Source: Flavihumibacter soli (GTDB taxonomy: Bacteria; Bacteroidota; Bacteroidia; Sphingobacteriales; Sphingobacteriaceae). From it: a DNA stretch of 64,000 bases. Location: contig NZ_JAAFZB010000090.1 of NCBI RefSeq assembly GCF_010692725.1, positions 62,001 to 126,000 of the forward strand. Reading direction: 5' to 3'. Shown here piece after piece: positions 251 to 63,991 of the stretch (the first letter of the stretch is position 1; every line of letters starts with the position of its first letter). Both the position numbers and the translations under genes were made by a program. The notes under the pieces were generated by a model. It ran no database searches and was not told the DNA's origin. It saw only the letters and a program-made list of their open reading frames with translations.

Positions 251-502
251 ATGAAAACAGCTAGAAATCTTAGAACCATGAAGCCGAAGTCGGAAATCCT
301 GGTACCGTTTGCAGTAGCCTTACTCTTTATTTTTAACTCAGTATTATCATTTGCTCAGTCAGCTCCCGAAAAGGTAGAAGTTGACATTAATGCCGATGGA
401 GGCAGCGTATGGTATGGCCAGCCTTGGGTTTGGGCAGTAGGTATCGCAGTCTTCATTGTGCTTATTGTTGCTATCACAAGGAGTAACAGTAAGAATGCAT
501 AA
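251..502 (+). CDS. small secreted/membrane protein with C-terminal TM segment
   Basis: An 83-residue protein that I do not recognise by name. It has a hydrophobic signal-like stretch at about residues 16-35, followed by AQSAPE, which looks like a signal peptidase site. A short acidic segment and a Gly/Trp-rich stretch (VWYGQPWVW, 53-61) follow, then a second hydrophobic helix at about 60-75 and a short tail with one Arg and one Lys. The mature part is therefore a tiny ectodomain on a C-terminal anchor. The start could also be Met10 (278), which gives a cleaner signal peptide. A strong terminator lies 22 bp after the stop, so the gene is monocistronic at its 3' end. The layout recalls tripartite sorting tails handled by exosortases, and an exosortase-like gene lies about 4 kb away, but that link is inference only. 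Confidence 0.7.
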   Translation: MKTARNLRTMKPKSEILVPFAVALLFIFNSVLSFAQSAPEKVEVDINADGGSVWYGQPWVWAVGIAVFIVLIVAITRSNSKNA

Positions 503-1704: not shown

Positions 1705-1778
1705 GCACCTGTAGCTTAATTGGATAGAGCACCTGACTACGGATCAGGAGGTTAGGGGTTCGACTCCCTTCAGGTGCA
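1705..1778 (+). tRNA. tRNA-Arg (anticodon ACG)
   Basis: A complete cloverleaf: acceptor GCACCTG/CAGGTGC, D arm GCTT...GAGC, anticodon stem CCTGA/TCAGG around loop CTACGGA, and T arm AGGGG TTCGACT CCCTT. The anticodon ACG reads CGU/CGC/CGA arginine codons after deamination of A34. The discriminator is A and the 3' CCA is not encoded. Confidence 0.96.
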
Positions 1779-2487: not shown

Positions 2488-2494
2488 AATTTTG
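2487..2494 (+). promoter_or_regulatory. promoter -7 element of obgE
   Basis: TAATTTTG matches TAnnTTTG and lies 51 bp before the obgE start codon. No clear TTTG -33 box is visible at the expected distance. Confidence 0.4.
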
Positions 2495-2545
2495 CACCTT
2501 TCAATCACGTTTTCCATAAGTACATTTCCACCTTATTACTACCTT

Positions 2546-3541
2546 ATGTCTCAGGGCTCCAATTTTGTAGATTATGTTAAAATATGTTGCCGGTCCGGGC
2601 ATGGCGGCCCCGGCTCCTCACATTTACACCGTGATATTTTAACTTCGAAAGGCGGGCCTGACGGCGGCGATGGCGGCCGGGGAGGCCATATCATACTCAA
2701 AGGCAACAGTCAACTGTGGACGCTACTGCATTTGAAGTACCGTAAACATATTATTGCCGAAAATGGTCTAACCGGATCAAGTGGAAATAAGTCAGGCAGA
2801 ACCGGAGCGGATGAGATCCTGGAGGTTCCGCTGGGTACAATCGCCCGCAATGCTGAGACCGGCGAGGTAGTGTTTGAGATTACCAAGGACGGCGAAACAA
2901 AGATCCTGACCCCTGGGGGCCGGGGTGGACTGGGCAACTCTCATTTTAAAACTTCGACCCAGCAGACCCCGCGTTACAGCCAGCCGGGTGAACCGGGTAG
3001 GGAAGAATGGATGATCCTGGAACTGAAGATCCTGGCTGATGTAGGATTGGTGGGATTTCCAAACGCAGGAAAATCGACGCTGCTCTCGGTAGTTTCCGCC
3101 GCGAAACCGGAAATTGCAGATTATGCATTCACCACGCTGGTTCCTAATCTCGGAATTGTTTCTTACCGGGATAACAAATCATTTGTTATGGCCGATATTC
3201 CGGGCATAATTGAAGGCGCTTCGAAAGGTAAGGGCCTCGGAATCCGGTTCCTACGGCATATCGAACGAAATTCGGTATTACTCTTCCTGATTCCCGCTGA
3301 TACCAGCAAAAGCATTCAGGAGGAATATGATATTTTGCTAAATGAGCTTAAGGAGTATAATCCGGAGTTGATGCATAAACCACGAGTACTGGCTATCAGT
3401 AAGTCGGACTTGCTGGATGATGAGTTGAAAAACGAAATGAAAACCGATCTGCCTGATCTTCCTTATGTATTCATTTCGTCCGTAGCGCAGAAAAACCTGC
3501 TTGAATTAAAGGATCTGCTTTGGAAATCAATAAACGCCTAG
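2546..3541 (+). CDS. obgE: GTPase Obg/CgtA
   Basis: Ribosome-associated GTPase of the Obg family, involved in 50S subunit maturation and stringent signalling in characterised relatives. The N-terminal Obg fold is rich in glycine ([12 protein letters not shown]), followed by a G domain with P-loop [10 protein letters not shown]3 [10 protein letters not shown] and G4 in the variant form SKSD. Its length of 331 residues is normal for a form without the C-terminal OCT domain. The frame opens at 2492, but [13 protein letters not shown] at 2546 aligns with the conserved N-terminus, so that start is used. It converges with the acetyltransferase gene, whose end is only 9 bp away. Confidence 0.95.
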
Positions 3542-3550
3542 GCGGGACAC

Positions 3551-4105
3551 TTAAGATATAATTCGTTCCCCGATCTTAATTGCCGGATTTCCCTGATAGA
3601 TAGCGTAGGGATCGGTGTTCTTTGTTACAATCGTGCCCAGCGTAACTATGCCGTGTGAGCCGATCACTATTCCCGGACTGACAACTGCACCCGCACCAAT
3701 CCAGGCACCGTCTTCAATAATAATGGGGCTAACAAAAAGGTCGAAAGTTGTTTTCTTATAATCATGGTTTCCGGTCATGAGCATGCAGCGCTGTGAAAGG
3801 CAAACATTTTTCCCAATGGTTACGTGCGCCAGATTCTCAATTGTACTCCCTTCGCCCAGCCAGGCATAGTCACCAATACTTAGTTTCCACGGATATTTAA
3901 TGTTAACAAAGGGCTTAACCCTAATTTCTTTGCCTGCCTTGCAACCGAACAGCTTTAACAAGGTAACGAGCACCGAACTAAACGGCATTAAGCCTGAACG
4001 AAAAAACACAGTGCTAATGAGATACCAGCAGTAAGTCTTAAAGGCACTCCCCCCTGAATTATAGTCTTTTTTATCAAAGTCTTTGCGTAGCTGGGTCTTA
4101 TTCAA
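3551..4105 (-). CDS. WcaF-like hexapeptide-repeat acetyltransferase
   Basis: A 184-residue left-handed beta-helix acyltransferase resembling the colanic acid acetyltransferase WcaF. It probably transfers an acetyl group from acetyl-CoA to a sugar of a surface polysaccharide. Hexapeptide repeats run from about residue 70 to 165 (IGDYAWLGEGSTI, IGKNVCLSQRC, IEDGAWIGAGAVV, IGSHGIVTLGTIV). The likely catalytic His is in TGNHDYKK, and the C-terminal YQGNPAIKIGER is typical of the family. It is the last gene of a three-gene minus-strand set and starts 12 bp after the exosortase-like gene, which supports a role in the same envelope glycan or anchoring pathway. Confidence 0.85.
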   Translation of the reverse strand: MNKTQLRKDFDKKDYNSGGSAFKTYCWYLISTVFFRSGLMPFSSVLVTLLKLFGCKAGKEIRVKPFVNIKYPWKLSIGDYAWLGEGSTIENLAHVTIGKNVCLSQRCMLMTGNHDYKKTTFDLFVSPIIIEDGAWIGAGAVVSPGIVIGSHGIVTLGTIVTKNTDPYAIYQGNPAIKIGERIIS

Positions 4106-4117
4106 AGCGTTTCCCGA

Positions 4118-4702
4118 TTATAAAGTTTTAGCTATTATCTTCTTGTCGTTGCCATAGTTTATCCAGAAATATATGCTGGTTAGCAAGATAGCGTATAATA
4201 AGAAATTGAACAGGATGTGATGATCAACCACTGATCTCAACGATGAGGTCCGCCAGAACAAAGTGATCAATATAAACCGGGCGACATTCAGGACCTGTAT
4301 GAGAAGTAAGCCGGCCGGTATGAAAACCAGCTTGTTTTTAAGCGTTTTCTCCGGCCATGCAATAACAAATGCCACAAAAAAACTCATGACGCCAAAACCA
4401 AGGCAGGAGTACACAACATTGATGCCCCCCGCATTTAATGCATGAAGGGTGGTGTCTGAAACGAAGATCTCGTATCCGAAAAATTTAAGGATTGCTGCGG
4501 AGATCGATATGAGCAGTATCCGAAAGCCCCTGATATAGTTTAGATTCTGGTCGAGAAATGCGCTGTAATAGTTGCCCGGCGCGGTAATACCCATGTAAAA
4601 GATATTAAAGTAATAGAGCAGGGTAAATAAACCAAGGAATATAACTACAAAGCGGTAGGACGGATTATCCCAATATTGCTTAAAACTCAGACTACCGGCC
4701 AT
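4118..4702 (-). CDS. exosortase-family membrane protein (Xrt type)
   Basis: A 194-residue integral membrane protein with about five or six hydrophobic helices. It carries the exosortase/archaeosortase catalytic pattern: Cys100 in VVYSCLGFG, Arg142 in LNVARF, and His161/162 in VDHHILFN near the last helix. Exosortases are membrane cysteine transpeptidases that cleave C-terminal sorting signals and help attach proteins to surface glycans. Bacteroidota carry several subfamilies (XrtF, XrtN, XrtX, XrtY), and I cannot assign one by eye. Its start overlaps the glycosyltransferase end by 11 bp, which indicates translational coupling. A glycosyltransferase upstream and an acetyltransferase downstream fit a glycan-linked anchoring module. 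Confidence 0.8.
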   Translation of the reverse strand: MAGSLSFKQYWDNPSYRFVVIFLGLFTLLYYFNIFYMGITAPGNYYSAFLDQNLNYIRGFRILLISISAAILKFFGYEIFVSDTTLHALNAGGINVVYSCLGFGVMSFFVAFVIAWPEKTLKNKLVFIPAGLLLIQVLNVARFILITLFWRTSSLRSVVDHHILFNFLLYAILLTSIYFWINYGNDKKIIAKTL

Positions 4703-5552
4703 TTTTCTTTTCTTTCAGGATCTCTTCAATTTTTACGTCTACAATAATACGGAACCAGAAGCCTTGCAGGAAATGGAAAAGTATGCCCCTGCGACCGTCA
4801 AGTATTCCCAGCTGAAATATCATCCGGTAAGTAAAATAAAAAAAAGGACGGATAAAACGGGGTAATTTCCACCATAAATTTTTCAGCCATGCTGTACGTT
4901 CATCGGGACTGCCCATCAGGTCAGGCCTGATGGTCTGAATCCGCAATTTATTCATCCGTTCGATTTCCTCGTGTGCCAGCAGGTCACTGTACCGGTTATG
5001 CTTACTTATCCAGAAGCTGATCTCATTTTCTTTAAGATTCTCTTCCAGGATATGACCCTTTTGCCAGATCAGTGTTTTTCCGGGAACCACAAACCGGTGG
5101 TCCATATTTTCATGCAGATCAGAAAACCCTTTTCCCGTGCGGAACATCTTAAGAAGGTACTTGGGATAGTATCCACCAAATCTGAGCCACCGGCCCTTGA
5201 AATAGTTTTTCCGGTTAAAATAGATCCCATCTATATCCTGATGAGCTGAATCCTGAAAGTGTTGAAGTTGTTGATACAGTTCCGGAGTGACGATCTGATC
5301 GGCATCCAGGCATACCAGCCAGGGAGTACGGAAATTAAATGCTTTTAAGGCCGCATCCCACTGCTTGGGGTGGTTTTCAAATTGATTGAAACTCGTTTCA
5401 ACACCGTAAATGCCGCAAATACTGAGGGTATTGTCGGTGCTTCCGGAATCGAGGATAAATGTTTCGGCATTCAGATCCTTAACCGATTCAAGCAGGCGTG
5501 GTAAATGTTCCTCCTCGTTAAAAGTCAGAATAACAAACGAGAAGTCAGGCAT
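4692..5552 (-). CDS. GT2-family glycosyltransferase
   Basis: A 286-residue GT-A fold family 2 glycosyltransferase similar in layout to WaaE/KdtX-type enzymes. FVILTFNEEEHL at the N-terminus starts the nucleotide-binding domain. ILDSGSTDNT lies at about 34-42 and the metal-binding DxD (LDAD, 82-85) follows. The C-terminal half (WLKNLWWKLPRFIRPFFYFTY) contains a hydrophobic stretch suggesting membrane association. It transfers a sugar from a nucleotide donor, but the acceptor is not visible. It leads the operon with the exosortase and WcaF-like genes. A -7 element lies 31-38 bp upstream. Confidence 0.88.
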   Translation of the reverse strand: MPDFSFVILTFNEEEHLPRLLESVKDLNAETFILDSGSTDNTLSICGIYGVETSFNQFENHPKQWDAALKAFNFRTPWLVCLDADQIVTPELYQQLQHFQDSAHQDIDGIYFNRKNYFKGRWLRFGGYYPKYLLKMFRTGKGFSDLHENMDHRFVVPGKTLIWQKGHILEENLKENEISFWISKHNRYSDLLAHEEIERMNKLRIQTIRPDLMGSPDERTAWLKNLWWKLPRFIRPFFYFTYRMIFQLGILDGRRGILFHFLQGFWFRIIVDVKIEEILKEKKNGR

Positions 5553-5582
5553 TCGGGGAGTTAGTTGTCAGGTTCATTCGAT

Positions 5583-5590
5583 CAAATATA
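5583..5590 (-). promoter_or_regulatory. promoter -7 element of the GT2-exosortase-acetyltransferase operon
   Basis: On the minus strand this reads TATATTTG, a TAnnTTTG match. It lies in the 57-bp gap between the helicase stop and the glycosyltransferase start. This implies that the operon can be transcribed separately from the helicase gene. Confidence 0.45.
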
Positions 5591-5609: not shown

Positions 5610-8600
5610 CTAAGCAGTTAATTCATCTCTTTGAACACCATTCCCGAGTAAACCCAGGAGTTCTGCCTTTGAAGAAAGATTTAATAATGTATCGCCTGTT
5701 TTGATCAGTGCATCTACACGGTTTACTTTGGTCTGCTGCAACTTCATGATCTTTTCTTCAACGGTGTCGGGACAGATCAAACGGACGGCGACCACGTTCT
5801 TCTTCTGACCGATGCGATAGCACCGGTCGATTGCCTGGTTTTCAACCGCGGGGTTCCACCAGGGGTCAACCAGGTAGACATAGCTGGCTTCCGTCAGGTT
5901 GAGCCCGGTGCCGCCTGCTTTTAGGCTTATTAGAAACACCCGGACATCCGTTTCATTTTGAAACTCATTTATTGCCGCTTCCCTGTTTTTCGTTTTACCC
6001 GTTAAATAAGCATACCGGATGGCTTTTTCATCGAGCTTCTCCTTGATCAGGTCAAGCATACCTACAAATTGGGAGAACACCAGGATCTTGCTGCCTGCAG
6101 ATTTATCTTCAATGTGCATGAGGAGCGTATCTATCTTGGCCGAGGTAGCGGAAGCAGGCCCTTTTTCGCCCGCCAGAACAGGCGCATCGCATACCTGCCG
6201 CAGGCGTGTTATGCCCTTCAAAACATACATAGAGGTTTTAGAAAGGTCATCGTCAGTTTTCGAGGAAACGAATTCACGAAATTCCTTTTCATAGGCATTA
6301 TAGATCTTCCTCTGTTCAGGCTGCATTTCACAGTATACTACCATTTCGATCTTTTCAGGTAACTCAGTTGCAACCTCGCCCTTGGTGCGGCGCAAAATAA
6401 AGGGAGCTACTTTTTCCCGGAGTTCCAATGCCCGCTTTTTAACTCCAAATTTATCGATGGGAGATGAGTAAACATCCCGAAACCATTGGAGGCTTCCAAG
6501 CAAGCCCGGGCAGGCAACTGACAACTGTCCGTAGAGGTCGAAGGTATTGTTTTCAACAGGCGTCCCCGTGATCACGATTTTACTCCGCGACTTAAGCACG
6601 CGGGCCGCCATATTTCGTTGTGACTGGGGGTTTTTGATATTCTGCGACTCATCAAAAAACACATAATTGAAATTGAACTCTCTGAAATGAGCCAGATCGG
6701 ATATTAGTGTTCCGTAGGAGGTAATGATTACGTCAAAATTGCCGAATTCCGAAGTGCTTTTTGTCCTTGCCGGCCCATAGGCTGTATGGACTTTTAGCGA
6801 TGGGGCAAACTTTTCAAATTCAGCCTGCCAGTTAAAAATCAGTGATGTGGGAACGATAACCATGCTGGTGGTCATGCCTCGTTTTTCAAGTTGCGAGTTT
6901 AGAAAAGCAATAATTTGCAAAGTTTTTCCCAGGCCCATATCGTCAGCCAGGCAACCCCCGAAATTTAGATCGTCAAGACAGTTTAGCCAGTTTAATCCCA
7001 GCTGCTGATAAGGACGAAGGATCCCGCTGACTGATGAGTTTACATTGGACACTCCGTTCTTCTTGAAATTGGCCAAGGTTCTTTCATAGCTAATAAGCTC
7101 GGACTTTACTTCTTCTGATAATAAGGCTTCATCATACATTTTCGCGATTGAAGCGAAATTAACGCGCGGCGTCCGCAATGTATCTTCAACGATTTCACCG
7201 GCGGCAAACCAGCTTGTGAACTTTTCAATCCAATCGGAGGGTATAATGCCCATAGTCCCGTCGTCAAGACGGACAAATTTACTTTTGCCCTTAATCGATT
7301 GACGAAGCTGCTTAAGCGAAGCTTTCTTCTTCCCAAACCGGAGCTCAATATTCGTATTAAACCAGTTAAGACCGCTGGTCACCTGTACAGAAACTTTAGC
7401 GGTCTGAGGATTCAGCTTTTGCGTTGTAATTTCATCAAAACCCAATATGGTAATTTCTGCAGCGTCCCAGTCGTCGAAAGCTTTTAGGAACCAGCTTTCA
7501 TCCAAAAATCTTTTTTTGTGCAGGTAGAAATACTGTAATGGGTTGTCCAGTTGTTCAACAAAATCAGGATTTTGTTTTAATAATAATGCAATAAAACGGT
7601 CTTCTTCCTGGCCGTCACGCTTTACGATATATTCTTTCCCCTTTTCATCACTGGAGATGATCTGCCGCTTTGTCCGCACAGGTATCTCAACGTCACCGTA
7701 CCTGATAACAGGGACAATGGAGATGTGCTGAGCAAAGTCGGACAGATAGATGATCTTTTCGAAGGGGGAGCCAAAATCTGATTTTTCAAGTTGTGTTGAA
7801 GATGCCTCCTGAATATAATTATGCGAAATGGTTATGCTGTTTTCCAGCTCATTCAGAACCGTATTCCGAAATTCCCGGAATTTGGACTGATGAATAATTA
7901 ATTTCCGGCCCTTTCCTTTCATCAGCTCAGCAAGGATGAGCAAGGCAGGGGATCTAACGAGGAAAAGACAGTCGTCTGCCTGGATAAAATGATTGAACCG
8001 GATTTGCAGGTCACCGGGAGAGGTCACCCGGCCGTTGATCTTCAGATTCGCTGTTAATTCATAAAATTGCTTCTTTAGCGAGATATTTAGTGAAACTTCT
8101 TCTTTCAGAACCGCAAGCTTAACAGGGCTTATTGACGAGGACGAAATGTTTTCAGATACATCGCTGTTATGCAGGTAGACCGGAATTCCGGAAGGGTTTT
8201 TTATAAGCGCTGTTAAGAAGGCAATGTCTTCGGCATTTTTCTTAACATCGATATTGCTTTGAAACCTGCTGACAGCGGTAAAAAATTTTATAGCCTGCGG
8301 ATCTTCCGTTTTCCAGATCTCATCGAGAGGGTTAACCGGTATAAATGGATTTTTTGGCTTCCCGTCTTTACTTGTCCTAGCCTCAACCAGATCAATAAAA
8401 AGGTGCCGGTAGTATTTATGCTGACGAAGAACGATGTATAAGGAGCATGATTCATCAGCTTTCCCGGCTGCGGGCGGCGGACTGTAGCTGACCAGCTTGC
8501 GCCTTATTTCATTAAGACTTCCTGGTTTTACGGGAAGTAAGGACGGATCTTTGGGGGCTATGCTGATCTCCCCGTTTTTGTGAACCACATGAAAGTGAGC

Positions 8601-9029
8601 TTCCAGATCCGGTTCCTTTTCCATTCCAAAGTCCGTGGAATACTTTCGGATCTTCTCCAGGCGCAATTTGTCATCAAAAAAGATCCTGAGGTCTTCCCGT
8701 TTCAATATATTGTAGAGCGTTTCGTACTGATGTTCGCAAATGGTGTCGCTGCCGTTTTTACAGGCGCAGGAAGTGATGAGTCTGTTGCCCTGGCCGAATA
8801 CCACAACGCCTGGAAATAGGCGGTCAGGAGCAGCATTGATAAAAATACCTGAGTTCAGGGATATCTCCTGTGGAATGATGTTTGGGTTAACCCTTATTTC
8901 CGGGAGTTCCTTTCCATGCAGCCTGGCGAGTGTAATTTCGCTGATCTCCTGGAAATTACCGGTGATCACAAACGCAGTTTTACTTAAAGCCGGATGAAGG
9001 TTACCTTTATCGTTCATATGTGCTATCAA
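5610..9029 (-). CDS. SNF2-family DNA-dependent ATPase with N-terminal SWIM zinc finger
   Basis: A 1139-residue Swi2/Snf2-type helicase-like ATPase. A SWIM zinc motif (Cys88-x-Cys90 ... Cys98-x-His100) is near the N-terminus, followed by about 550 residues of accessory region. The ATPase core starts near 680 with Walker A DDMGLGKT, motif II FDES (in place of DEAH), motif III VITGTPVENN, and lobe 2 with SQFVGMLD, SLKAGGTGLNLT and WWNPAVENQAIDRCYRIGQ. Such proteins remodel nucleoprotein or translocate on duplex DNA, and the bacterial role is poorly defined. The start may be Met1 or Met5. A possible -7 element (TAGTTTTG) overlaps the stop codon of the upstream mlaD-like gene. Confidence 0.93.
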   Translation of the reverse strand: MIAHMNDKGNLHPALSKTAFVITGNFQEISEITLARLHGKELPEIRVNPNIIPQEISLNSGIFINAAPDRLFPGVVVFGQGNRLITSCACKNGSDTICEHQYETLYNILKREDLRIFFDDKLRLEKIRKYSTDFGMEKEPDLEAHFHVVHKNGEISIAPKDPSLLPVKPGSLNEIRRKLVSYSPPPAAGKADESCSLYIVLRQHKYYRHLFIDLVEARTSKDGKPKNPFIPVNPLDEIWKTEDPQAIKFFTAVSRFQSNIDVKKNAEDIAFLTALIKNPSGIPVYLHNSDVSENISSSSISPVKLAVLKEEVSLNISLKKQFYELTANLKINGRVTSPGDLQIRFNHFIQADDCLFLVRSPALLILAELMKGKGRKLIIHQSKFREFRNTVLNELENSITISHNYIQEASSTQLEKSDFGSPFEKIIYLSDFAQHISIVPVIRYGDVEIPVRTKRQIISSDEKGKEYIVKRDGQEEDRFIALLLKQNPDFVEQLDNPLQYFYLHKKRFLDESWFLKAFDDWDAAEITILGFDEITTQKLNPQTAKVSVQVTSGLNWFNTNIELRFGKKKASLKQLRQSIKGKSKFVRLDDGTMGIIPSDWIEKFTSWFAAGEIVEDTLRTPRVNFASIAKMYDEALLSEEVKSELISYERTLANFKKNGVSNVNSSVSGILRPYQQLGLNWLNCLDDLNFGGCLADDMGLGKTLQIIAFLNSQLEKRGMTTSMVIVPTSLIFNWQAEFEKFAPSLKVHTAYGPARTKSTSEFGNFDVIITSYGTLISDLAHFREFNFNYVFFDESQNIKNPQSQRNMAARVLKSRSKIVITGTPVENNTFDLYGQLSVACPGLLGSLQWFRDVYSSPIDKFGVKKRALELREKVAPFILRRTKGEVATELPEKIEMVVYCEMQPEQRKIYNAYEKEFREFVSSKTDDDLSKTSMYVLKGITRLRQVCDAPVLAGEKGPASATSAKIDTLLMHIEDKSAGSKILVFSQFVGMLDLIKEKLDEKAIRYAYLTGKTKNREAAINEFQNETDVRVFLISLKAGGTGLNLTEASYVYLVDPWWNPAVENQAIDRCYRIGQKKNVVAVRLICPDTVEEKIMKLQQTKVNRVDALIKTGDTLLNLSSKAELLGLLGNGVQRDELTA

Positions 9030-61273: not shown

Positions 61274-63991
61274 TTACACAGCGGAGCTGTCCGGTAATTC
61301 AATAGTAAACTCAGTGCCCTCCCCGGGAGAGCTGTTAATGCGGATATTACCACCTAAGAGCTGCACCTGGGTTCTAACCATATACAAGCCCATTCCTTTT
61401 CCAGGTACCTGCGAATGGAAGCGGTTATACAATCCGAAGATTTCATTACCGTGCTTTTCAAGATCAATACCGATTCCATTGTCTTTATAATTTAGAATGA
61501 CAGTCTTTCCATTCAAATGAGAGGAGATACTTATTGCAGGCGTCAAACCGGGTTTACGGAACTTAATGCTGTTGTTAATCAGATTATAAAAAATGCTGTG
61601 GAGGTAAGTTCTAAGGCTTACCGTTCCGTTTATTTCTTTAAAGTCTGTGAATATTTGGACGGAATGTTCATCTATAAGGTTCTGAATGCTTGATTTAATA
61701 CCTATTATAAGTTCCTCAAAATCGATAAAGATTTTTCTTTCCGTTACTTCCCGGCTGGCCTGTAAAATGTCGTTCAGATCCCTGATCACGGAATCCAACT
61801 GCTCAACGCTTACTGTTAATATCCTTTCAAAATTCAGGCGTGCATCATGTTGCAGGTTATCATTTTTGAGAATATTGCAGATCCCAAGAATGTTTGCGAC
61901 AGGAGCGCGCAGATTGTGGGAAACAATGTACGTGAATTGCTCCAGGTCCTGGTTTCGATGCATCAGATCCGCTGAGATCTTTTCGCGATGAATCTCATCT
62001 ACCTTTCTCCGGCTGATATCCTCTATGGAAATGACAACACCAAGGAACGTGTTTGAATCAATAACGGGGAACAACTTGATCTGGTACCAGTTACGGGAGC
62101 CGTCTGGCTGCTCATAGGAGCGCTCAAATTCTGATGGTTTTCCCTGCCGTAATTCTGATATAATTGTTTCGAGCCGGCCTGTTCTATTGGAAGAAACATA
62201 GGATAAAATGTTTTTGTCTTTTTCTAATGTTATCTTAAATTCTCTTTTCCCGAAGTCAACCGCGACCTGGTTAAAGGTAACCGATTCAAAATCTTTATTG
62301 AAGAGGACATAGCCCACGTCTGTGATATTTAAAATGGAGTGCAGGTTAGCACGCGAGCGGACGATCTCTTCTTCATTCTTCAAGCGCTGGGTTATGTCAT
62401 TGCTAAGGGTGAGACGCACGGCCTGACCCCCATAGTTAATGTCCTGAACAAGGACGTGAACAAACACGAAGGACCCGTCTTTCTTTTTATGCTTTCTGAT
62501 TCCCAGGTCGACGGGCTGAAACATGTCCTTGTTAAAATTTTCAATCAGCAGACCGATATCTTCCTCAGGCTTCAGATCCTTTAAAGTCATATTCAGTAGT
62601 TCGTCTTTGGTATAGCCATAAAGTGCACAGGCTGCATCATTCGCCCCGACGATTAACATGTCTTCCCGGGAAGCCATAAACATGGGCAATGGGTTACTAT
62701 CAAACAGTAATTTGTACTTCTGTTCTGACAGGCTAAGTTCCTGTTCGGCCTGGCGTCGTCGGGTAACATCAATAGCTGAGGCCATAACACATTGCTGGCC
62801 TTCCCAGGTGAACGAAGTACCAGTCATGTAGACCGGGACCGTACTGCCATCTGTCCGGATAAACTCCGTTTCGATGCTCGCTACGATACCAGATTGGTGC
62901 AGATCCTGAACAATGGCTTTGACCCTTTCGCGATCCTTTGGAATTATAAAACTATACGGCAAAGAGTAGATTATTTCCTCCGGTGACCAGCCGGTAATTT
63001 GTTCAAAATTTTCATTCCATTTAAATAACCCTCCTTCCATGTTTCTTATCATAAAAATTCCGGGCAGTGTTCTTATGATGGTTTCTGAAAGTGTTTTTTC
63101 CCTGATCAGCATCTGTTCAGCCTGCTTTTTATCAGTAATATCCAGCACCGATCCAATGATCGCAGGCCGGCCACGATATTGGGTGGTGTTGCCAAATATT
63201 TCAATGACATTCTCACTTCCGTCTTTTCGGCAGCCTCTCACTTCATAATGAACACTGTCTTTAAGTCCGTCCAAACGGGCTTGAATATTTTCGAGTGTGA
63301 TGTGCCTGTCTTCTTCGGCTATCACATTTTCAACCGGCAGAGAATTGATGAGCTCCTGCGGAGTATAGCCGAATATTTCCGCGAATCTCCTGTTCACATA
63401 CTGATATTTCCCATCCTGTGTAATGTAAAAACCAACCATTGATTTTTCGGCCAGGTCCCGAAATTTAGATTCTGATTCCAGTAGTTCTGCCTCGATCCTT
63501 TTTCTTTCCGTTATATCTCTTACTATCGCAAAAATTCTGTTTTCAGTGGATTTCTTTACATTAACGTCAACCCACACCACGGATCCATCCTTTCTCCGCA
63601 TTGGCCGTTCGTTAGAGATGTGCTCACCTGTCGTCAATGACGTATACTTGAGAGGATCGAGCTTCATATTCTCAGGATCGAAAAAGGAAGATATATGTGC
63701 CGACAGAATTTCACTTCTGGAATAACCAAGCAATGCACAGAGGCTTGCATTTACATCGCGAATACTTCCGTCTAAATCCCCGATTATGATAGAGTCGGAG
63801 ACTTGCTCAAACAATTGCCTGTACAGGCTTTCTTCTTCCCTGATCTCGTCTGCAGCCTTTGGTTTGCGGCGAAAAAATAACGAGACTAAGAGTACTCCAA
63901 TTCCCAGACCGGCGATAAAGATGAAAAGGTCTAAAGGGGATATCATCCCTAACCAGATCAGATTTCTAAAGTCGGCCATTATAACAACCAT
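61274..63991 (-). CDS. five-PAS membrane histidine kinase
   Basis: A histidine kinase of up to 905 residues, close to the window edge. The start may be Met1 (63991), Met5 (63979) or further upstream outside the window. One N-terminal TM helix (LFIFIAGLGIGVLLVSLFF) is followed by five PAS/PAC modules (ends IVRDITERK, VLDITDKK, AIDVTRRR, SNDITQRL, IEDISRRK). HisKA follows (YIVSHNLRAPVANILGI, His near 691) and a full HATPase with YNLINNSIKFRKPG, NGIGIDLEKHG and GKGMGLYMVRTQVQLLGGNI. It has no receiver or output domain and no adjacent regulator. It is followed by a probable terminator. Confidence 0.88.
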   Translation of the reverse strand: MVVIMADFRNLIWLGMISPLDLFIFIAGLGIGVLLVSLFFRRKPKAADEIREEESLYRQLFEQVSDSIIIGDLDGSIRDVNASLCALLGYSRSEILSAHISSFFDPENMKLDPLKYTSLTTGEHISNERPMRRKDGSVVWVDVNVKKSTENRIFAIVRDITERKRIEAELLESESKFRDLAEKSMVGFYITQDGKYQYVNRRFAEIFGYTPQELINSLPVENVIAEEDRHITLENIQARLDGLKDSVHYEVRGCRKDGSENVIEIFGNTTQYRGRPAIIGSVLDITDKKQAEQMLIREKTLSETIIRTLPGIFMIRNMEGGLFKWNENFEQITGWSPEEIIYSLPYSFIIPKDRERVKAIVQDLHQSGIVASIETEFIRTDGSTVPVYMTGTSFTWEGQQCVMASAIDVTRRRQAEQELSLSEQKYKLLFDSNPLPMFMASREDMLIVGANDAACALYGYTKDELLNMTLKDLKPEEDIGLLIENFNKDMFQPVDLGIRKHKKKDGSFVFVHVLVQDINYGGQAVRLTLSNDITQRLKNEEEIVRSRANLHSILNITDVGYVLFNKDFESVTFNQVAVDFGKREFKITLEKDKNILSYVSSNRTGRLETIISELRQGKPSEFERSYEQPDGSRNWYQIKLFPVIDSNTFLGVVISIEDISRRKVDEIHREKISADLMHRNQDLEQFTYIVSHNLRAPVANILGICNILKNDNLQHDARLNFERILTVSVEQLDSVIRDLNDILQASREVTERKIFIDFEELIIGIKSSIQNLIDEHSVQIFTDFKEINGTVSLRTYLHSIFYNLINNSIKFRKPGLTPAISISSHLNGKTVILNYKDNGIGIDLEKHGNEIFGLYNRFHSQVPGKGMGLYMVRTQVQLLGGNIRINSSPGEGTEFTIELPDSSAV

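Follow-up and report, generated by a model that had tools for sequence, protein, structure and literature searches.

A predicted exosortase Y operon of Flavihumibacter soli, its glycosyltransferase partner and a candidate peptide-sized PID-CTERM substrate

The stretch of DNA investigated here (the window) comprises 64,000 nucleotides of Flavihumibacter soli, positions 62001–126000 of contig NZ_JAAFZB010000090.1 (C90), and the genome that was searched along with it covers 4.44 Mb on 96 contigs. Three consecutive genes on the minus strand of the window are the subject of this study. They encode a family 2 glycosyltransferase (GT2, 286 aa, 5552–4692; PF00535, 54.1 bits), the membrane protein exosortase Y (XrtY, 194 aa, ATG start, 4702–4118) and a hexapeptide-repeat O-acetyltransferase of WcaF type (184 aa, TTG start as listed, 4105–3551). 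All three open reading frames (ORFs) of the operon that a first-pass annotation of this DNA had described could thus be located. The ORFs of GT2 and exosortase have 11 bp in common (4702–4692), which fits the translational coupling claimed there, and the acetyltransferase starts 12 bp past the exosortase stop.

Identity of the exosortase was established by profile search against the exosortase subfamilies. With 188.6 bits the protein exceeds the cut-off of 160 of the NCBIfam model for exosortase Y (NF046083), and with 39.2 bits also that of the general exosortase/archaeosortase signature (23). Seven NCBIfam models matched, no XrtN model being among them; XrtX (64 bits, cut-off 170), XrtF (44 bits, cut-off 90), XrtH, XrtG and archaeosortase D remained below their cut-offs. 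The earlier exosortase call is therefore upheld and narrowed to XrtY, and an assignment to XrtF or XrtX is ruled out by these scores. Among named relatives, the exosortase is closest to proteins from a Pedobacter metagenome bin (68% identity) and from Daejeonella oryzae (63%).

The three predicted catalytic residues named for this protein are conserved. In an alignment of 81 XrtY rows, two of which are mis-trimmed so that 79 are filled at the catalytic columns, Cys100 (codon 4403–4405, minus strand), Arg142 (4277–4279, minus strand) and His162 are identical in 79/79 rows. His161, whose codon forms the segment 4217–4222 (minus strand) together with that of His162, is present in 78 of the 79 and replaced by Leu in one. 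Being invariant, unlike His161, His162 is more likely to be the catalytic histidine. In a smaller alignment Cys100 and Arg142 are conserved in 13/13 sequences. For ArtA of Haloferax, Cys173, Arg214 and Arg253 are reported as critical for activity (PMC9263693), and by analogy we infer that Cys100 and Arg142 would be the counterparts of Cys173 and Arg214. The AlphaFold2 model (mean predicted local distance difference test score 93.4) exhibits long helices at 14–40, 56–74, 103–115, 121–149 and 161–182, as is typical of a polytopic membrane protein, with hydrophobicity judged by eye. Searches of the PDB gave no sequence match at E≤1 and no fold match at E≤0.001. A literature search, partly judged by titles, revealed no paper on the XrtY, XrtX or PID-CTERM subfamilies.

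The glycosyltransferase is a nearly constant companion of XrtY. Among 80 named XrtY loci, 36 encode GT2 and exosortase as a single fused ORF; in 39 GT2 lies directly upstream and in five it is absent from this place, so that it is fused or adjoining in 75. Two of the five deserve mention: in L126 a GT2 lies 733 bp upstream with a PID-like gene between them on the opposite strand, and in L116 another GT2-like ORF is present that is not taken by the GT2 profile. On a tree from a short search, with support from the Shimodaira–Hasegawa-like approximate likelihood ratio test only, fused and separate states interchange nine times, and at least five of these changes are forced by well-supported branches. 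The 77 GT2s, including that of the window, form one group of 64 (33 fused), one of 12 (two fused) and one single, fused sequence, with an average likeness of 38% between the two groups, both of which have fused members. That this position is occupied in nearly all loci by either of two enzymes, with repeated fusion, suggests that both activities serve one substrate. Titles and abstract openings of the literature on exosortase, glycosyltransferase and fusion contained no sign of a GT2–exosortase fusion.

With 209.2 bits against NF007797 (cut-off 192) the third gene product is WcaF-like at the subfamily level. It does not qualify as the WcaF equivalog of colanic acid synthesis (TIGR04008, 131.4 bits, cut-off 326.3). 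An acetyltransferase lies directly downstream of XrtY in 61 of the 80 named loci. In the more distant set of L198 and L208 (genomes G014 and G388), acetyltransferase, GT2, PID and exosortase genes are consecutive within a glycosyltransferase cluster, and in L205 (G300) a Wzy-like protein, GT2, XrtY, acetyltransferase and PID occur within 10 kb, Wzy being named there by position and likeness, unscored.

The candidate substrate of the enzyme is encoded on another contig. The PID-CTERM model (NF046080) has a single match in the genome (C91:128978–128907, minus strand; 38.8 bits, cut-off 26), and a variant-tail profile (A2), built from six tails of which one (L126) was found by a pattern script, picked the same single ORF. 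Read from an ATG common to the relative L037, the precursor has 86 residues (C91:129146–128886). It consists of a signal peptide, about 20 residues QCDPHLDPFCEEPIPLD (heuristic cut), GG, a hydrophobic helix and a basic end, and its motif is PLDGG. The recurrent sorting tail that the first-pass annotation had proposed to look for is present only once in this genome by both profiles; it recurs across genomes with XrtY. No group of multiple sorted proteins was detected with these two PID-type tail profiles.

To judge the size of the sorted molecule, the tails of 69 of 79 PID loci could be cut into signal peptide and mature stretch, by a heuristic that prefers Gln and with a few motifs misplaced (for example in L044, L223 and L226). 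Up to the motif, the mature part is short (median 22 residues, n=69), so that in most loci a peptide is sorted rather than a protein domain; in eight cases it measures at least 54 residues. Exactly two Cys occur in 41/69 and none in 19/69. With this heuristic 41/69 start with Gln, and for an N-terminal Gln a pyroglutamate-capped N-terminus is expected from the Q-rule (PMC5837995).

Further tails were seen with the variant profile. In genus g15 (probably Mucilaginibacter) most of the matches that were read are tiny, with CPLDTWV-like tails. Five variant tails of g14 (probably Pedobacter) sit on ORFs of 126–182 residues (L228, L229, L231, L235, L240), in G118, G146 and G170 on the contig of XrtY, and may represent a second kind of substrate. 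In L204 (G088) a PID gene is found near a divergent exosortase-like ORF (38 bits with the XrtY profile), with many similar short ORFs around. A short window gene at 251–502 (plus strand; 83 aa, with a signal peptide, C-terminal helix and basic end by reading, and no Pfam match) was considered as a substrate as well and rejected, because NF046080 and the variant profile each match one place only, elsewhere.

Enzyme and tail occur together across genomes. For this comparison any hit of the XrtY model at E≤0.001 was counted as an XrtY match, a criterion that also takes in other exosortases, and the own genome is included in both sets. Of 60 relatives, 30 carry an XrtY match (12 over the cut-off); PID was detected in 19, all of them among these 30, and in 0/30 relatives that have no XrtY match. 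Within 399 genomes of the family, with up to eight candidates scored per genome, 188 have an XrtY match (157 over the cut-off) and 54 have PID. The tail is present in 51/188 genomes with and in 3/211 without an XrtY match (Fisher p 2e-15, uncorrected for phylogeny), which means that 51 of the 54 PID genomes carry the match. The three exceptions (G075, G306, G400) were searched again with all candidates scored, and none reached E≤0.001. A hidden XrtY in G400 was rejected, since the weak match lies in an ORF read as cardiolipin-synthase-like. The G400 tail reads AIDGG in place of PIDGG, and its PID-like gene (L101, identical to L241), listed as an ORF that has no signal peptide, may be a relic. 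The variant profile was also applied to 45 of the XrtY genomes that are PID-negative, and revealed a tail in 35 at E≤0.05 and in 29 at E≤0.001. In 35 genomes without XrtY, which include the known exceptions G306 and G400, it gave two matches at E≤0.05 (G400, G034) and none at E≤0.001.

The PID gene has a conspicuous neighbour. In the own genome it shares 50 bp with the 3' end of the gene for an 1120-aa protein with a type A sorting domain of the type IX secretion system (T9SS), recognised by Por_Secre_tail PF18962 (43.5 bits, cut-off 27) as well as TIGR04183 (32.9 bits, cut-off 23). At E≤0.001 the genome has genes for 14 T9SS type A cargos, including three around the PID gene. An ORF with a T9SS tail lies directly upstream on the same strand in 40/79 PID loci compared to 2/1363 control genes (p 3e-53, uncorrected for kinship). 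The tandems were scored with a profile of eight T9SS tails, and the controls are genes around the named XrtY loci and in the window, taken with a simple ORF picker. The 40 tandems have gaps of −52 to 139 bp and stem from 12 genera and five families. The 79 PID loci are those returned by the searches; they are unequal per genus and contain one gene twice (L101 and L241). L054 and L239, for which the script gave no PID ORF, were counted as lacking T9SS, and L042 lacks it by the own profile, yet exceeds the NCBIfam cut-off. Pfam places the sorting domain over cut-off in 6/6 full cargos and in seven of ten further upstream proteins (L035 and L042 fall just short of it or below it, and L038 has no match), NCBIfam in nine of these ten, with L038 below. 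In L039 and L045, of two other families, the cargo has SprB repeats, and behind the PID gene comes an exosortase-like one.

Genes for a polysaccharide are located on a third contig. On C82 we found the XrtY-associated Wzy protein (XrtY_assoc_Wzy NF046084, 692 bits, cut-off 420) and XYAG1 (NF046085, 542 bits, cut-off 400) in a cluster with further glycosyltransferases and two FkbM-type methyltransferases. Since the polysaccharide genes lie on another contig, the operon does not by itself constitute a locus for glycan building. The role that the first-pass annotation suggested for it, in making a modified surface glycan and attaching it, is plausible: the conserved and repeatedly fused GT2 and the acetyltransferase, together with Wzy and XYAG1 elsewhere in the genome, fit such a function, of which the attachment is a prediction.

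The direct surroundings of the operon are of a different kind. It is flanked by an obg-like gene (2492–3541, plus strand) and an SNF2-type helicase gene (5610–9029, minus strand), both named from reading the sequence, and with these neighbours a position of the operon inside a polysaccharide locus was rejected. The 57-bp gap behind the SNF2-type gene holds a weak promoter-like box, TATATTTG (5583–5590, minus strand), a match to TAnnTTTG, which we take to be a promoter consensus. This pattern occurs 47 times in the window (52.5 expected) and upstream of GT2 in three of eight family loci inspected (L008, L012, L014). A sigma-70-like site precedes GT2 at 5613–5585, where the scan gave three sites in the region compared to 4.7 in shuffles. 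Signals for a promoter of its own, as claimed earlier, therefore cannot be told from chance. Elsewhere in the window, a tRNA gene (1705–1778, plus strand) was the sole match of an Rfam scan; its end overlaps the start of a GTG-start adk-like ORF as listed (1774), so that the adk-like gene probably starts further down. In the solitary XrtY loci L163 and L170 the neighbours were read as genes for glyceraldehyde-3-phosphate dehydrogenase and phosphoglycerate kinase.

Taken together, we propose, and give it about an even chance, that the operon provides the enzymes of an XrtY system in which one tiny peptide is cut and joined to a glycan that depends on GT2 and the acetyltransferase, with a T9SS cargo as likely partner. 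Judging from its sequence, the PID precursor would be exported and would lose its signal peptide, its C-terminal helix holding it in the inner membrane so that about 20 residues are left in the periplasm. As expected for its family, XrtY would then cut near P-[IL]-D by means of Cys100. Gene neighbourhood and repeated fusion point to a transfer of the new C-terminus of the peptide to an acceptor that would be made with GT2 and modified by the acetyltransferase. A lipid-linked glycan is the likely candidate for this acceptor; it would come from the XrtY-associated Wzy/XYAG1 cluster, which is unlinked to the operon, and a peptide-capped glycan would be the product. For the large T9SS cargo the genetic association is observed, and it would be the likely surface partner of the peptide. 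In several Methanosarcina, artA, pssA and pssD occur together; in Haloferax, where these genes are unclustered, loss of HvPssA or HvPssD stops cleavage of an ArtA substrate (PMC7157517). ArtA with PssA/PssD is the closest tested precedent for XrtY with a putative acceptor-making enzyme.

Several observations weigh against this proposal. Operon, PID gene and Wzy cluster lie on three separate contigs, and cleavage, transpeptidation and acceptor are predictions for the XrtY system. NF046080 finds no match in 137 of the 188 XrtY-match genomes, and in 10 of the 45 PID-negative ones tested with the variant profile no tail was detected at E≤0.05 either. A GT2 of this kind is missing directly upstream in five of the 80 XrtY loci, two of which, L163 and L170, possess neither GT2 nor acetyltransferase, and in 19 of the 80 no acetyltransferase follows directly. 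With the own profile no T9SS neighbour was seen in 38/79 PID loci, in one more it lies on the opposite strand, and in g14 an upstream cargo was found in 5/25 loci. A partner-specific peptide-binding domain was rejected, as ten partners share their large region with eight T9SS cargos that are not directly ahead of PID. The fold of the glycosyltransferase has to be added: for a model of the GT2–XrtY fusion of L181 (predicted template-modelling score 0.62) the six best PDB folds are the peptide S-glycosyltransferases ThuS and SunS, and by sequence the window GT2 is nearest to GmaR (5.8e-7), with SunS at 3.2e-5.

The fused or neighbouring GT2 could accordingly act on the peptide instead of an acceptor. 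It would then glycosylate the PID precursor, perhaps at Cys, in the cytoplasm, and XrtY would release or re-anchor the glycopeptide, with no polysaccharide attached. The two cysteines in 41 of the 69 mature peptides agree with this, the 19 that have none do not, and the fold is indecisive, since behind the best ThuS match (6.1e-10) the glycan-acting WrtF (from 2.6e-8), RmlT (from 5.7e-8) and TarP (from 3.0e-7) follow closely. A plain glycopeptide would need neither the Wzy polymerase nor XYAG1, and we regard this explanation as rather unlikely. The tandems with their short gaps in 12 genera and five families could also mean that the PID peptide helps the neighbouring T9SS cargo in folding, secretion timing or anchoring; XrtY would only remove the membrane anchor and the glycan genes would serve the anchor of the cargo. 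In Flavobacterium johnsoniae, T9SS and xrtF mutants are reported to share the loss of sand colonisation, biofilm and zorbs (PMC10936215), which would be in line with such a role, although XrtF and not XrtY is concerned there. Most T9SS cargos are, however, unpartnered, with one PID gene for 14 type A cargos in the own genome; the PID neighbours form no distinct cargo type, and nearly half of the PID loci have no such neighbour, which makes this role of the peptide improbable. A free peptide, secreted for example as a signal or a surface-active compound, with XrtY as a mere protease, would fit the tiny mature region and the frequent Gln start with its expected pyroglutamate cap, bearing in mind that the heuristic prefers Gln. 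It would leave the GT2 fusion, the acetyltransferase and the co-occurring Wzy-like cluster unexplained, and we consider it very improbable.

A GT2 that is repeatedly fused to an exosortase is a pointer to the acceptor-making enzyme; a 2020 paper calls the acceptor compound of exosortases unidentified (PMC7468200). With some 20 residues, the candidate substrate could be analysed whole by mass spectrometry, together with its predicted adduct. The tandem of T9SS cargo and PID connects two surface-sorting systems of Bacteroidota, for which the same paper offers a speculative comparison of exosortase and type IX sorting. In a bolder picture, which is quite unlikely in our estimation, XrtY, often as a GT2–exosortase polypeptide, would cap an exopolysaccharide or glycolipid with a Pro/Asp-rich, often two-Cys and probably pyroglutamate-ended peptide of about 20 residues, and the giant T9SS protein translated immediately ahead of this peptide would grip the tag at the cell surface and moor the capsule to the cell. 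Both sorting systems would then jointly hold the capsule on the cell.

The enzyme, the PID-CTERM tail, Wzy and XYAG1 are already known as NCBIfam families, and all four models of this XrtY set (NF046083, NF046080, NF046084, NF046085) are over cut-off in the genome of F. soli. What seems new beside them are the peptide-sized substrate, the fused glycosyltransferase and the type IX cargo tandem; compared by family names, neither these nor the acetyltransferase are part of the set. XrtA/PEP-CTERM systems have many protein substrates. Here, in contrast, one tiny substrate was found, its motif is P-[IL]-D and not PEP, and the exosortase gene lies away from the polysaccharide locus. Shared with PEP-CTERM/EpsH (XrtA) are an integral-membrane Cys enzyme, a tripartite C-terminal signal and a link to exopolysaccharide (PMC11980579). 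Similar to XrtY and its GT2, archaeosortase A has the genes of lipid-making enzymes, PssA and PssD, beside it in some species, and their loss blocks cleavage (PMC7157517); the acceptor proposed for ArtA is archaetidylethanolamine, whereas GT2 suggests a glycan or glycolipid here. In Bacteroidota themselves, PorU of the T9SS is described as joining the new C-terminus of a secreted polypeptide to a glycolipid, anionic lipopolysaccharide (A-LPS) (PMC7468200). PorU differs from XrtY in belonging to the gingipain-family proteases, and its targets are type IX C-terminal signals.

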